From Candidatus Woesearchaeota archaeon (GTDB lineage: Archaea > Nanobdellota > Nanobdellia > Woesearchaeales > GW2011-AR4): 26,847 nucleotides of DNA. Under the pieces are notes generated by a model that was not told the origin of the DNA, made no database searches, and saw only the letters and a list, made by a program, of their open reading frames with translations. The position numbers and the translations under genes are program-made. Below are positions 14,470 to 18,370 of the stretch, piece by piece; within the stretch, counting starts at the first letter, position 1, and each line of letters begins with the position of its first letter. The DNA lies in contig DUHN01000008.1 in the NCBI GenBank assembly GCA_013330825.1, positions 1-26,847 of the forward strand, read 5' to 3'.

Positions 14470-15048
14470 TTATGGCCGCAGCCACCTGACCTCATAATAC
14501 GTCACGTCCCCCTCATCGTCAACGATGCCCAGCAGCAGCCTTTTCTTGGTGGAATGCGCCACCCGGTTCTTGGCAGAGAAATCATACCACGTGAGCGCAG
14601 ACGCCTCATGCACCGGGAACACCACCCATCTCGCATGGTCCTCTCCCGGCTTCACTCCCCGGTCATAGACGCGGAAATCGCCGCCGAACTTGAGTGCAGT
14701 CTTGATGATATAGCCTTTGTTGCGGATGTCCCTGAAGACAGCATACCGCACGAAGAGGTTGGGATCCGTCTTCTGCCCCTTCTTGAGCAGCGCCTCGAAG
14801 CCAACGTCCTTGTCCCTGCTGTCCACCACCTTGATCTTCTTCTTGTCGAGCAGATACAGGGCCTCGATCAATGACAGCTGGACCTTGCCGCTCTCCAGCA
14901 GCGTGCCGTACCTGCTCTGGTTGTACAGCTCCCGCGCGGCATCAGAGCTCTCCGTCGTCACCCTGTTCTTGGTGAAGAGCGCGGTGATGGTGGCATTCTC
15001 CCCTTCTTTCTGCCCCTCTGCCTGCTCCTGCTTCTTCTTTGGAGTCAT
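14470..15048 (-). CDS. endA: tRNA-splicing endonuclease
   Basis: Cuts introns from pre-tRNA at bulge-helix-bulge sites. The 192-residue protein has the catalytic core YAVFRDIRNKGYIIKTALKF, FRVYDRG (Tyr), EDHARWVVFPVHE (His), and NRVAHSTKKRLLLGIV (Lys), the three catalytic residues of the family, ending in the C-terminal interface strand VTYYEVRW. Length fits the homotetramer-type subunit with a somewhat long Lys/Glu-rich N-terminus. ATG 15048 is 22-31 nt after a minus-strand TATA box. It is convergent with the AT-rich island, marking where GC-rich chromosome resumes. Confidence 0.93.
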   Translation of the reverse strand: MTPKKKQEQAEGQKEGENATITALFTKNRVTTESSDAARELYNQSRYGTLLESGKVQLSLIEALYLLDKKKIKVVDSRDKDVGFEALLKKGQKTDPNLFVRYAVFRDIRNKGYIIKTALKFGGDFRVYDRGVKPGEDHARWVVFPVHEASALTWYDFSAKNRVAHSTKKRLLLGIVDDEGDVTYYEVRWLRP

Positions 15049-15141: not shown

Positions 15142-15210
15142 ATGGCAAAGATTATTAAGAGGATGAAAAAGACGCGTGGAAATGGAAATACGCGCAGTAG
15201 GCGGCTATGA
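15142..15210 (+). other. Possible upstream short ORF before RNase J
   Basis: A 22-codon frame (MAKIIKRMKKTRGNGNTRSRRL) begins at the first ATG, about 20-26 nt after a TATA-like CTTTAAGTG (15115-15123), and overlaps the start of the RNase J gene in another frame. If the transcript begins near 15142, this would be the leaderless start codon and RNase J would need internal initiation. It could also be coincidence. Confidence 0.15.
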
Positions 15211-16507
15211 CGAAGTGGGCAAGAACTGCACCGCCGTCAGGATAGGGAACGAGGCATTCATCTTCGACTGCGGCGTCCACCTGGAGAATTTCATCCAATA
15301 CACCGAGGACGAGCACCTTCTCAGCATCCGCCCGGAGGATCTCATCAAGGTAGGCGCGGTCCCGGACATCTCAAGGATATCGGACTGGAAGAGCAACCTG
15401 AAGATGATCCTCCCCACGCACGCCCATCTTGACCATATCGGAGCACTCCCTTACCTTGCCTCTTCCCTGAAAGTGCCGATAGCCGCCACCCCCTTTACGA
15501 TCGAAGTCCTCAAGGCCATCCTCCAGGACAATGGGATGAAGCTCAGGAATCCGCTCAAGACCGTGCACCCCAACAGCAGCATCAGGGTCTCAAGCACCAT
15601 AACGGCAGAGTTCATCCACGTCACCCATTCCACCCCCCACACCGCGATGATCGCCCTCCACACGCCTGAAGGCACCATCCTCTACGCCAACGACTTCAAG
15701 TTTGACCTCACGCCAACCCTTGGCAAGAAGCCGAATCTCAAGCGCCTGGAGGAGCTCGGCAGGCAAGGGGTCAAGGCGCTGATTGTGGACTCCACCTACG
15801 CTGCAGACCCCCGCAAGATGCCCTCCGAGGCCGTTGCCCGCCAGATGCTCTATGACGTGCTGTTGGGCGTCAACTCCAAGGGCAAGGCCGTCATCGTCAC
15901 CACGTTCTCCTCCCACATCGCCAGGCTGAAGTCCATCATCGAGATGGGGCACAAGCTCGGCAGGAAAATCGTCTTCCTCGGCCGGAGCCTCCACAAATAT
16001 TCCACGGCGGCGGAGCGCGTTGGAATAGTCAATTTCTCGAGGGAAGTGCAGATGATAAAATACCCCAAGCAGATGAAGAAGGAGCTGAGGAGGATTGCGG
16101 CAAGGAAGGAAAAATACCTTCTGGTCGTCACGGGCCACCAGGGCGAGCCGCAGTCGACCTTGTCAAAGATGGTCAATGGCAAGCTCCCCTTCTCCTTCTC
16201 GCCTGAAGACCACGTCGTCTTCTCCTGCAAGACCATCCCGACGGAGACCAACATCCGGAACCGCGAGCGCCTCGAGACCAGCCTGAGAAGCAAGCACGTC
16301 CGCATGTTCCTCGACGTCCATGCCTCGGGCCACGCGGCGCGGGAGGACCTCAGGGATCTGCTCCATCTCGTGAAGCCGCGGCACATCATCCCGGCCCACG
16401 GCGGCATCGAGATGAGGAAGGCCATGGCCTCGCTCGCGGAGGAGCTCGGCTACTCGACAGGGAAGGACGTCCATCTCCTTGACGACGGCAGCTCGATCCG
16501 GCTTTGA
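15176..16507 (+). CDS. rnj: Archaeal RNase J (beta-CASP metallo-beta-lactamase nuclease)
   Basis: A 5'-3' exoribonuclease for RNA decay and processing. The 443-residue protein opens with MEIRAVGGYDEVGKN, has the metallo-beta-lactamase motif THAHLDHIGALP (H82, H84, D86, H87), ILYANDFKFD, the beta-CASP segments VIVTTFSSHIARLKSI and VTGHQGEPQSTLSKM, and the C-terminal DVHASGHAAREDL and HIIPAHGG (motif C and the last metal His). It lacks the N-terminal KH domains of aCPSF proteins, so RNase J is the better name. Start may be GTG 15176 or ATG 15182; AGAGGATG upstream could serve as ribosome binding site. It faces away from endA, and both act on RNA. Confidence 0.93.
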   Translation: MEMEIRAVGGYDEVGKNCTAVRIGNEAFIFDCGVHLENFIQYTEDEHLLSIRPEDLIKVGAVPDISRISDWKSNLKMILPTHAHLDHIGALPYLASSLKVPIAATPFTIEVLKAILQDNGMKLRNPLKTVHPNSSIRVSSTITAEFIHVTHSTPHTAMIALHTPEGTILYANDFKFDLTPTLGKKPNLKRLEELGRQGVKALIVDSTYAADPRKMPSEAVARQMLYDVLLGVNSKGKAVIVTTFSSHIARLKSIIEMGHKLGRKIVFLGRSLHKYSTAAERVGIVNFSREVQMIKYPKQMKKELRRIAARKEKYLLVVTGHQGEPQSTLSKMVNGKLPFSFSPEDHVVFSCKTIPTETNIRNRERLETSLRSKHVRMFLDVHASGHAAREDLRDLLHLVKPRHIIPAHGGIEMRKAMASLAEELGYSTGKDVHLLDDGSSIRL

Positions 16508-16550: not shown

Positions 16551-16832
16551 ATGAACAAAGACGCCGCAGTCACCTCATTCGTGCTGGGCATCCTCTGTGT
16601 CATCCCGCTCCTGAATTGGGTGCTTGCTCCCCTCGCCATGTATTTTGGCATCAGGGCCCTGCGCAGCATACGCAAGGATCCGCAGCACTACGGCGGAAAA
16701 ACATTTGCCATCATCGGCATCACTCTTGGTTCAGCAGTCCTCTTCTTCAATGTAACGGGAAAGCTCTTCTGGGAAGATGATGCCCTCTACCCGGATTATC
16801 CCCGCAACGTATTGATGTCGCTTTTCTCCTGA
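16551..16832 (+). CDS. Small membrane protein, DUF4190-like
   Basis: A 93-residue protein with two transmembrane helices (FVLGILCVIPLLNWVLAPLA and TFAIIGITLGSAVLFFNVTG) joined by MYFGIRALRSIRKDPQHYGG. That arrangement, with SFVLGIL at the start, a small basic loop, GG, and a second Gly-rich helix, is the DUF4190 pattern. The tail EDDALYPDYPRN is short and acidic. Function of the family is unknown. It has its own promoter and stands alone between RNase J and the repeat/RNA locus. Confidence 0.75.
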   Translation: MNKDAAVTSFVLGILCVIPLLNWVLAPLAMYFGIRALRSIRKDPQHYGGKTFAIIGITLGSAVLFFNVTGKLFWEDDALYPDYPRNVLMSLFS

Positions 16833-16834
16833 CG

Positions 16835-16846
16835 CTCCTCGGGAAA
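16835..16846 (+). repeat. 12-bp direct repeat, left copy
   Basis: CTCCTCGGGAAA, identical to 17073-17084. The two copies flank the nested inverted-repeat region, as a target-site duplication would. Confidence 0.6.
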
Positions 16847-16850
16847 GAGA

Positions 16851-17071
16851 CCGTTCAGATAAGGGAGAACGCCAGGGGTGGCGTCTTGTCGCGAGCGTCT
16901 TGCGGTTAGTAAAATGAGCGCCAAGGGGGACGCCCCGTCCGGGGAATGGCGCCTCGTGGCTACGAATGACAAAGCGGGCCCGATGCCCAGAGCAAGGCGA
17001 TGGGGCACTGGAAACGTGTTTCCGCGTGCCACCCTGCGCAGCAAGGCGTTCTCCCGCGCTTAAGTGAACGG
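16851..17071 (-). ncRNA. Candidate structured RNA (or MITE-like element), strand uncertain
   Basis: A 221-nt gene-free stretch with strictly nested complementary arms: CCGTTCA 16851-16857 with TGAACGG 17065-17071; GGGAGAACGCC 16863-16873 with GGCGTTCTCCC 17045-17055 (11 bp perfect); GGGGTGGC 16875-16882 with GCCACCCT 17028-17035; CGTCTTGC 16896-16903 with GCAAGGCG 16992-16999 (one G-U). Local hairpins: GCGCCA/TGGCGC (16918-16952), TCGT/ACGA (16954-16965), GGGC/GCCC (16976-16988) and GGAAAC/GTTTCC (17010-17023). Minus strand is preferred because a TATA-like TTTTTAAAC (about 17101-17093) is about 25 nt from 17071, while nothing TATA-like precedes 16851. I did not find RNase P or SRP RNA signatures. 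Flanking direct repeats leave a mobile element possible. Confidence 0.5.
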
Positions 17072-17072
17072 C

Positions 17073-17084
17073 CTCCTCGGGAAA
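17073..17084 (+). repeat. 12-bp direct repeat, right copy
   Basis: CTCCTCGGGAAA, exact copy of 16835-16846, immediately outside the outer stem. Confidence 0.6.
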
Positions 17085-17092
17085 AAGGGAAA

Positions 17093-17102
17093 TGTTTAAA
17101 AA
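17093..17102 (+). promoter_or_regulatory. TATA box for the GT2 operon, possibly bidirectional
   Basis: GTTTAAAAAC about 27-36 nt before ATG 17129. Its near-symmetric AT core could also serve the minus-strand RNA starting near 17071. Confidence 0.45.
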
Positions 17103-17128
17103 CGAAAAGAGAGAGCTTTTTCATCACC

Positions 17129-18370
17129 ATGGAGTTCATCATGCAGCTTGGAACGGGACTGTTCTTCATCCTTTTTGCCTTCCTGATGGCTGTTTTTGCG
17201 GTGGTCGTCCTCTCCCTGTTCAGGAAAGACGCCTCCCACGGAGCATTCGAGCCAAAGGTCTCCATCATCATCCCGGCGTATAACGAGGAGCAGCATATCG
17301 GCGACTGCATCAGCTCGGTCAGGTCCCTCGCCTACCCAAAGGAGAAGACGGAAATCATCGTTGTCGATGACGGTTCGGCAGACCATACAGCTTCCATCGC
17401 CAGGCGGCACGGCGCGAAGGTCGTCACCATCCGCCACGCAGGCAAGGTCGCTGCCCTCAACGCGGGAATGAAGCGCGCGAGGCACGGCTTCCTCTTCACC
17501 GTCGATGCGGACACCGTCGTCGAGCAGGACTGCCTCAGGAACCTGGTATCCCCCTTCATCCAGGAGGATGTCGGGGCGACGACAGGGAATAGCAGGGTGA
17601 AGAACTCCCGCAGCGTCATCGGGGCGTTCCAGAACATCGAGTACCATTACAACAACCTCATCCGCGCGAGCTTCTCCAGGGTCTTCAGGACAGGCATCTG
17701 GTTCTTCGGCGCATTGGCCTGCTACCGGAAATCCGCGCTGCTGAAGGCAGGAGGATTCAAGAAGGACACTCTCGCGGAGGACATGGACATCGCATTGGAG
17801 CTCAAGCGTGCGGGTTACCGGAGCGTCAATGTCCCCCGGGCCATCGGCCACACCGTCGCGCCGTCAACGGTCTCTTCCCTCTATAGGCAGCGCTTCCGCT
17901 GGTGGATGGGGACCCTGCAGTCGCTCTTCAAGAACAAGTCTCTCTTCTCGCGGAAATCCCCCTGGAGCATCCATTTCCTCTTCATCAACCAGTACTGGTG
18001 GAGCGTCTACGCGTTCCTCTCCCTGCCGCTCATCATCTACCAGCTCAATTACTGGCTGCCCTCGAACTCCCACACGATAGGGGAGCTTTCCGGCTATCTC
18101 TTCCGCTGGTTCTCGCTCTCCGGTCCGGTGTACGTGCTCTACAAGATCCCCGAATGGGGCATCAACTACTGGACCATCTTCGGCGTGCTGTCCGGCATCA
18201 TCTCGTCCGTCATGATTGTCATCGCCGTTAGGATGTTCAAGGACACCTTCACCCTGAGGAACGCCATCGCGGTGTTCTTCTACTTCCCCTATACCATACT
18301 TTTAAATATCATCATCGCTTTCAGCATCATTCGCTATCACCTCTCTCCGCAGAGGTATTTTGTGAGATGA
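17129..18370 (+). CDS. Processive-type GT2 glycosyltransferase, membrane
   Basis: A membrane glycosyltransferase of 413 residues of the cellulose/hyaluronan/poly-GlcNAc synthase type. It has an N-terminal membrane helix (LFFILFAFLMAVFAVVVL), then VSIIIPAYNEE, VVDDGS (first Asp), FTVDAD (D-x-D), LAEDMDI (catalytic ED) and RQRFRWWMG (Q-x-x-R-W), the D, D, D, QxxRW set of processive enzymes. Four or more C-terminal membrane helices follow (NQYWWSVYAFLSLPLIIY onward). The frame is open back to 17000, but that part is the repeat/RNA locus; ATG 17129 (MEFIMQLG) follows the TATA box and precedes the hydrophobic start. It is one base from the next GT2. Polymer identity cannot be read from sequence. 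Confidence 0.9.
   Translation: MEFIMQLGTGLFFILFAFLMAVFAVVVLSLFRKDASHGAFEPKVSIIIPAYNEEQHIGDCISSVRSLAYPKEKTEIIVVDDGSADHTASIARRHGAKVVTIRHAGKVAALNAGMKRARHGFLFTVDADTVVEQDCLRNLVSPFIQEDVGATTGNSRVKNSRSVIGAFQNIEYHYNNLIRASFSRVFRTGIWFFGALACYRKSALLKAGGFKKDTLAEDMDIALELKRAGYRSVNVPRAIGHTVAPSTVSSLYRQRFRWWMGTLQSLFKNKSLFSRKSPWSIHFLFINQYWWSVYAFLSLPLIIYQLNYWLPSNSHTIGELSGYLFRWFSLSGPVYVLYKIPEWGINYWTIFGVLSGIISSVMIVIAVRMFKDTFTLRNAIAVFFYFPYTILLNIIIAFSIIRYHLSPQRYFVR

Follow-up and report, generated by a model that had tools for sequence, protein, structure and literature searches.

Genes and repeats at the locus

The window, the whole 26,847-nt stretch of a Candidatus Woesearchaeota contig analysed here, contains a 229-bp palindromic unit lying between a DUF4190 protein gene and a glycosyltransferase family 2 gene and enclosed by exact direct repeats (Table 1). 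The listed open reading frame (ORF) of the glycosyltransferase opens at 17000, inside the unit, and an ATG beyond the unit is its likely true start. Three listed ORFs overlap the unit: two on the minus strand lack a Pfam match, and the third runs into the glycosyltransferase. Further upstream lie a tRNA-intron endonuclease gene (14470-15048, minus strand) and a gene for an RNase J-like beta-CASP protein (15176-16507, plus strand), both ordinary genes.

Table 1 Features of the candidate mini-transposon and its surroundings (window positions)
Feature	Positions	Strand	Remarks
DUF4190 protein gene, upstream	16551..16832	+	5 nt separate its stop codon from the duplication
Left 9-bp target-site duplication CTCGGGAAA	16838..16846	+	From the sequence; duplication 9/9, arm 11/14
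Candidate MITE unit	16847..17075	+	229 bp; plus is the strand with the AAGGGGGACGYCCC core motif
Left terminal inverted repeat GAGACCGTTCAGATAAG	16847..16863	+	Inverted-repeat search
Second arm, 5' side GGGAGAACGCC	16863..16873	+	Exact 11-bp pair with 17045..17055
Third arm, 5' side GGGTGGC	16876..16882	+	Exact 7-bp pair with 17028..17034
Core hairpin GCGCC...GGCGC	16918..16952	+	Encloses conserved motif AAGGGGGACGCCCCGTCCGGGGAATG at 16923-16948
Third arm, 3' side GCCACCC	17028..17034	+	Exact 7-bp pair with 16876..16882
Second arm, 3' side GGCGTTCTCCC	17045..17055	+	Exact 11-bp pair with 16863..16873
Right terminal inverted repeat CTTAAGTGAACGGCCTC	17059..17075	+	Inverted-repeat search
Right 9-bp target-site duplication CTCGGGAAA	17076..17084	+	Copy of the left duplication
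TATA-like box TTTAAAAA of the downstream gene	17095..17102	+	19 nt from element edge; family norm 15-17
Glycosyltransferase family 2 gene, downstream	17129..18370	+	ATG at 17129 is the likely true start

The terminal inverted repeats are imperfect (82% of 17 positions complementary). The original prediction described four nested stems of 7, 11, 8 and 8 bp, of which we recover the nesting order, the 7-bp stem inside the outer arms and the exact 11-bp pair, together with a further exact 7-bp pair; the fourth, 8-bp stem was not recognised as a separate pair among the 25 of 29 inverted pairs displayed. An arm like the second is the outermost one in some other copies from the same genome (L180, L184, L185). 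Likewise, the 12-bp direct repeats noticed earlier exist (CTCCTCGGGAAA, at 16835-16846 and 17073-17084), but only 9 bp of them are flush with the inverted repeats, and the extra three bases, which overlap the right terminal repeat (...GGCCTC), are taken as chance. The earlier suggestion that the repeats are a target duplication fits both the flush, exact 9 bp and the 9-bp duplications found in relatives.

Copies and distribution of the family

A DNA search with the 229-bp unit found further places in the genome of origin (G000) and in nine of 58 relatives, some of the matches (in G057, and one in G000) being at contig ends. The conserved centre AAGGGGGACGYCCCNTNCGGGGAATG matched exactly in 30 stretches of an 84,980-species collection from which records of the genome of origin were perhaps excluded, and the titles of these records read Woesearchaeota, 'Nanoarchaeota archaeon' or 'archaeon'; viral contigs gave no match to the core pattern. 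A covariance model built from 17 copies matches the window copy at 16870-16999 (54.9 bits, E 4.7e-13). With this model, the check for other copies in the same genome returned 42 matches at E<=1e-3 (150 of 245 candidates scored, the weak ones possibly chance), and four other genomes gave 35, 77, 8 and 24. Order-wide, 124 of 352 genomes have matches at E<=1e-4 with eight candidates scored per genome, the E-values being rough and the weak matches perhaps due to chance.

Some copies depart from the common form. Three longer ones (L227:942-1294, L228:941-1356 and L229:985-1351; 353, 416 and 367 bp, the last with masked bases) seem to hold several extra hairpins nested inside the outer palindrome, as though hairpins had accumulated one inside another. 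Downstream of the listed element, L061 and L066 each show a second core motif in reverse, perhaps as part of one larger unit of about 286-291 bp. L181 (G000:C44:21184-21294) has different ends (TGTGTTTAGCAGC) and a GAAGAGGTA repeat, and lies between genes that we take to be rpl2 and rpsS.

Target duplications, an empty site and stacked elements

With unrefined model ends, the two flanks agree at 8 or more of 9 positions in 34 of 93 copies, compared with 7 of 8556 swapped pairs; refined ends were moved within 25 nt, which favours duplications. Exact flanking repeats peak at 9 bp (21 cases). One empty site, of the kind that the original prediction had named as a mark of a mobile element, was found, and it belongs to L127, a relative of the window copy. 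L127 (duplication 8/9) has matches in all 20 genomes of its genus, its own included. In the seven congeners with both flanks resolved, the gap between the flanks is 16-90 bp, except in G016 and G032, where they overlap by 6 and 2 nt, respectively. Since gaps of this size are too short for the 165-bp element, the site is empty in these congeners, and the 6-nt overlap in G016 indicates one, diverged, target. Among the collected loci themselves no empty site was seen, the six junction matches being self-matches of the query locus in five cases and a match to an overlapping locus in the sixth.

In five cases (L282, L289, L299, L300 and L305), the end of a second element lies at the duplication or 1 nt from it, on the side opposite the TATA-like box, an arrangement that new copies landing between older ones and the promoter would produce. 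A third copy of the duplication was absent from four of these, and L299 has one with a mismatch, away from the element ends.

IS5-type elements as a likely transposase source

Full-length insertion sequences (ISs) were located by searching for paired ends. The 281-aa ORF of one such locus, L226, matches Pfam DDE_Tnp_1 (8.2e-11; score 42.5 against a cut-off of 23) and, over residues 27-258, the NCBIfam model of the IS5 family (transpos_IS5_2, NF033579; 3.6e-36), where its 125.1 bits fall below the curated cut-off of 140. At 1e-10, 65 of the 352 genomes of the order hold relatives. Target-site duplications of at least 8/9 together with well-paired ends are seen at 8 of the 30 IS loci fetched, with lengths of 877-909 bp, and most IS ends begin with GGC. 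IS903 has GGCTTTGTTG ends and 9-bp duplications. Because the IS5-type elements share similar ends and 9-bp duplications with the small elements, they are the likely source of the transposase; the small elements resemble them only in their ends and carry no transposase. In G177, an IS and a small element have an identical 15-nt end GGCTCTGTCCTAAAT, the duplication of the IS not being visible because it starts at a contig edge.

Full-length partners with matching ends were found for GGCTC... types, as in G177, and none was seen with the window's own end (GAGACCGTTC; GAGACC type). The genome of origin, 87% complete, yielded no IS5_2 relative at 1e-10 and no DDE_Tnp_1 match at 1e-3. In 18 IS loci scanned, the core of the covariance model was not found inside an IS; its only matches, in L264 and L259, lay apart from the IS. 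Among other transposase profiles, PF01609 was found in 3 of 10 genomes and PF13610 in 6 of 12, and PF12762 in none of 12. PF13737 gave nothing in 10 genomes; as the controls were likewise blank, this is no evidence of absence. C-terminal pieces of the transposase (about residues 219-278) are numerous in four genomes (G009, G300, G084 and G317), frequently at contig ends; they may represent another type of MITE arising by internal deletion of an IS.

The window copy has terminal inverted repeats, a target-site duplication, a length of 229 bp, no transposase gene and many genomic copies. From these sequence features, we conclude that it is very probably a non-autonomous mini-transposon (MITE) mobile in trans. 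This had been one of two readings offered by the original prediction, and it gains from the many copies, the target duplications, the likely transposase source with similar ends and the empty site of a relative.

Fold and co-variation of the arms

The other reading makes the feature a structured non-coding RNA gene or a cis-regulatory RNA, with incidental duplications. Compared with dinucleotide shuffles, the sequence folds somewhat better, yet not extremely so (plus strand, z -2.30 with 5 of 200 shuffles as good; minus strand, z -3.32 with 0 of 200). An argument for an RNA is strong co-variation: compensatory changes in homologues, proposed as the test of an RNA, are present, with 721 double-change cells at pairs against a mean of 194 in shuffles, none of 500 reaching that count, in an alignment fitted to the tested structure, which flatters the signal. 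Both sides change in 31 of 34 pairs, a value reached by 6 of 500 shuffles, and sliding the pairing partners abolishes the co-variation. However, paired transposon ends also change together.

G-U and A-C pairs are about equally scarce in the terminal arms of the outer helix (32:31) and in P4 (12:11); the balance leans to G-U in P2 (7:3) and P5 (9:1), and the pooled inner helices give 28:15 (two-sided p 0.066). P3 (A-C 30, G-U 4, other 103) stands outside the pooled figure, because its columns were judged to be misaligned. We take the complementarity of the terminal arms to be a property of the DNA; the inner counts settle the matter neither way, leaving room for a role of the G-U-leaning inner helices as RNA or as single strands. 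Tandem-GA internal loops that we interpret as resembling k-turns would also suit an RNA. Conversely, the inner nested inverted repeats may be held complementary at the DNA level, e.g., by hairpin-templated correction.

The Rfam search suggested in the original prediction found no match over the whole window at the gathering thresholds and none up to E = 10 over 16780-17140; tRNA and tmRNA were tested among the RNA readings and rejected. The facing promoter lies on the left side of the element in 31 cases and on the right in 34, i.e., in either orientation, and the 9-bp duplications are flush with the element. The TATA-like stretch once proposed to start an RNA on the minus strand is, in our interpretation, better suited to be the plus-strand promoter of the next gene. 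Without an Rfam match, a G-U excess in the terminal arms or a preferred orientation to promoters, the RNA reading is not supported, and we consider it very improbable beside a MITE.

A narrow register upstream of promoters

In 62 of 80 distinct well-bounded insertions, a TATA-like box starts 15-17 nt from the element edge (discovery set, 30 of 39; hold-out set, 24 of 34; full-length ISs with clear duplications, 8 of 8). Random positions have a TATA-like hexamer in this register in 343 of 20000 cases for the discovery loci (1.7%) and in 434 of 20000 for the hold-out loci (2.2%). The discovery set comprises insertions with a duplication of at least 8 and an arm of at least 7, taken from 94 tabulated copies after removal of one duplicate. 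These 94 derive from 103 model matches; of the nine left out, seven were second entries or edge cases, one was read on the opposite strand, and one, L046, omitted inadvertently, has a 9/9 duplication and would count as a register match. The hold-out set comes from one genome, G060, and contains the 34 insertions with a duplication of at least 8, out of 38 with paired ends among 40 fetched. The same genome also contributes L152 and L195b to the discovery set. Because L152 is the same insertion as L273, counting as a miss in the discovery and the hold-out set alike, the 81 rows stand for 80 insertions. The IS set consists of the 8 of 30 fetched loci with a duplication of at least 8, other ISs being uncounted. 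Both the choice of hexamers and the 15-17 range drew on the discovery set, the hexamers being selected while it was in view and the range once its histogram was known; G060 was scored later.

In the 78 flanks of the 39 discovery insertions, hexamers start at offsets 15, 16 and 17 in 16, 11 and 22 cases, against 0.34 per offset at 60-139 nt. Off the register, the discovery set has 8 hexamers each at 8-14 and at 18-24, and the full-length ISs have 6 at 18-24. Read outwards from the duplication, the consensus is about nnAA(c)(c)TTTATAAA, which we read as a probable BRE plus TATA. An outward ORF start follows the TATA in 55 of 65 TATA-bearing flanks. Outward ORF starts cluster at 45-49 nt (22 of 65), in a count that excludes eight named loci with doubtful ends. 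The 18 insertions without a strict hexamer at 15-17 include some with looser TATA-like stretches visible by eye. The window copy, whose row was fixed by hand at its 9-bp boundaries, adjoins a promoter and counts as a miss, its TATA-like box being outside the register.

The near-constant distance of the relatives upstream of promoters suggests that the moving enzyme is guided to promoters. Selection against insertions within genes adds to any apparent promoter preference, and the register might reflect survival only, insertions elsewhere having been lost. Only 7 of 85 insertions lie between convergent genes without a facing promoter (by a rough ORF call on the flanks), a scarcity that selection or targeting could give. 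However, sites further upstream should survive too, yet between 21 and 59 nt the hexamer frequency is 0.59 per offset, close to background, against 11-22 per offset at 15-17, and we regard survival alone as very unlikely to set the register.

Alternatively, the fixed distance may arise because promoter DNA is generally accessible or bent, in a way that many transposases could exploit, and not from a property of the IS5-type transposase. We compared five other ISs, picked by eye from 23 loci. Two elements with an IS240 domain (PF13610), L213:584-3276 and L219:1099-2099, have 8- and 9-bp duplications and TATA-like boxes near the same register (13-15 in L213; 14 and 16 in L219), whereas three others with well-paired ends and 4-6 bp duplications (L198, L201 and L203) have no TATA-like hexamer there. 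Because two elements lie near the register and three do not, accessibility remains a rival; the narrowness of the register (47 hexamers at 15-17 and none at 18-24 in the hold-out set) speaks against it, and we consider it possible, if rather doubtful.

A proposed model for promoter-directed insertion and its known counterparts

Most MITEs and ISs with clear duplications share one layout, in either orientation: the 9-bp duplication, about 6-8 bp at the place of the BRE, and then the TATA box. The IS5-type transposase would move the MITEs in trans, and the layout would reflect target choice. The transposase may dock on, or read, the TBP/TFB-bound promoter, which would place the element next to a core promoter that is left intact. 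We judge it an evenly balanced proposition that a DPANN IS5-type transposase has evolved to recognise the TBP/TFB-bound promoter (or BRE/TATA DNA) and inserts both its own IS and a host of MITEs at a constant position immediately before the BRE, paralleling in archaea, from a different transposase superfamily, what TnGBS does in bacteria and Ty3 in yeast. Should the transposase set the register, this would be a natural, narrow-register promoter-targeting DDE transposon in archaea, present in many members of a large order known from metagenomes. It would offer a route to testing how transposases read the basal transcription machinery, it would point out archaeal promoters where a genome lacks RNA data, and a mobile palindrome could sit beside the core promoters of dozens of genes per genome.

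The closest parallel is bacterial. According to the excerpted text of PMC3942029, TnGBS, ISLre2 and some ISKra4 elements (p-MULT 3 and 4) insert at sigma-A promoters, 15-17 bases upstream of the -35 region, a contact with the RNA polymerase initiation complex is proposed for them, and members whose inverted repeats are near-perfect either have a promoter on each side or insert in either orientation. The archaeal MITEs are alike in their very similar promoter distance and in both orientations; they differ in that the bacterial elements are Mutator-type and measure from a -35 box, whereas the archaeal ones are IS5-type and adjoin BRE/TATA. The partner transposase matches DDE_Tnp_1, and the Mutator-type profile PF00872 (IS256 relatives), which covers p-MULT only partly, was found in none of 17 genomes. 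In the same excerpts, a preference of the archaeal ISH6 for promoter or intergenic regions is merely raised as possible. Searching open-access papers in PMC brought up no report of an archaeal promoter-register element of this kind, and the excerpts of PMC6640164 hold nothing of the kind for Pyrococcus. Yeast Ty3 integrase is cited in the PMC3942029 excerpts as interacting with TFIIIB and TFIIIC.

ERIC and Correia, the bacterial palindromic MITEs, are short, intergenic and present in many copies, with long imperfect palindromes and TA-type duplications. The archaeal MITEs resemble them in size, copy number and palindromes and differ by the 9-bp duplication and the promoter register. Ty3 inserts position-specifically beside the core promoter, as the archaeal elements do, but by a retrotransposon integrase and at RNA polymerase III promoters.
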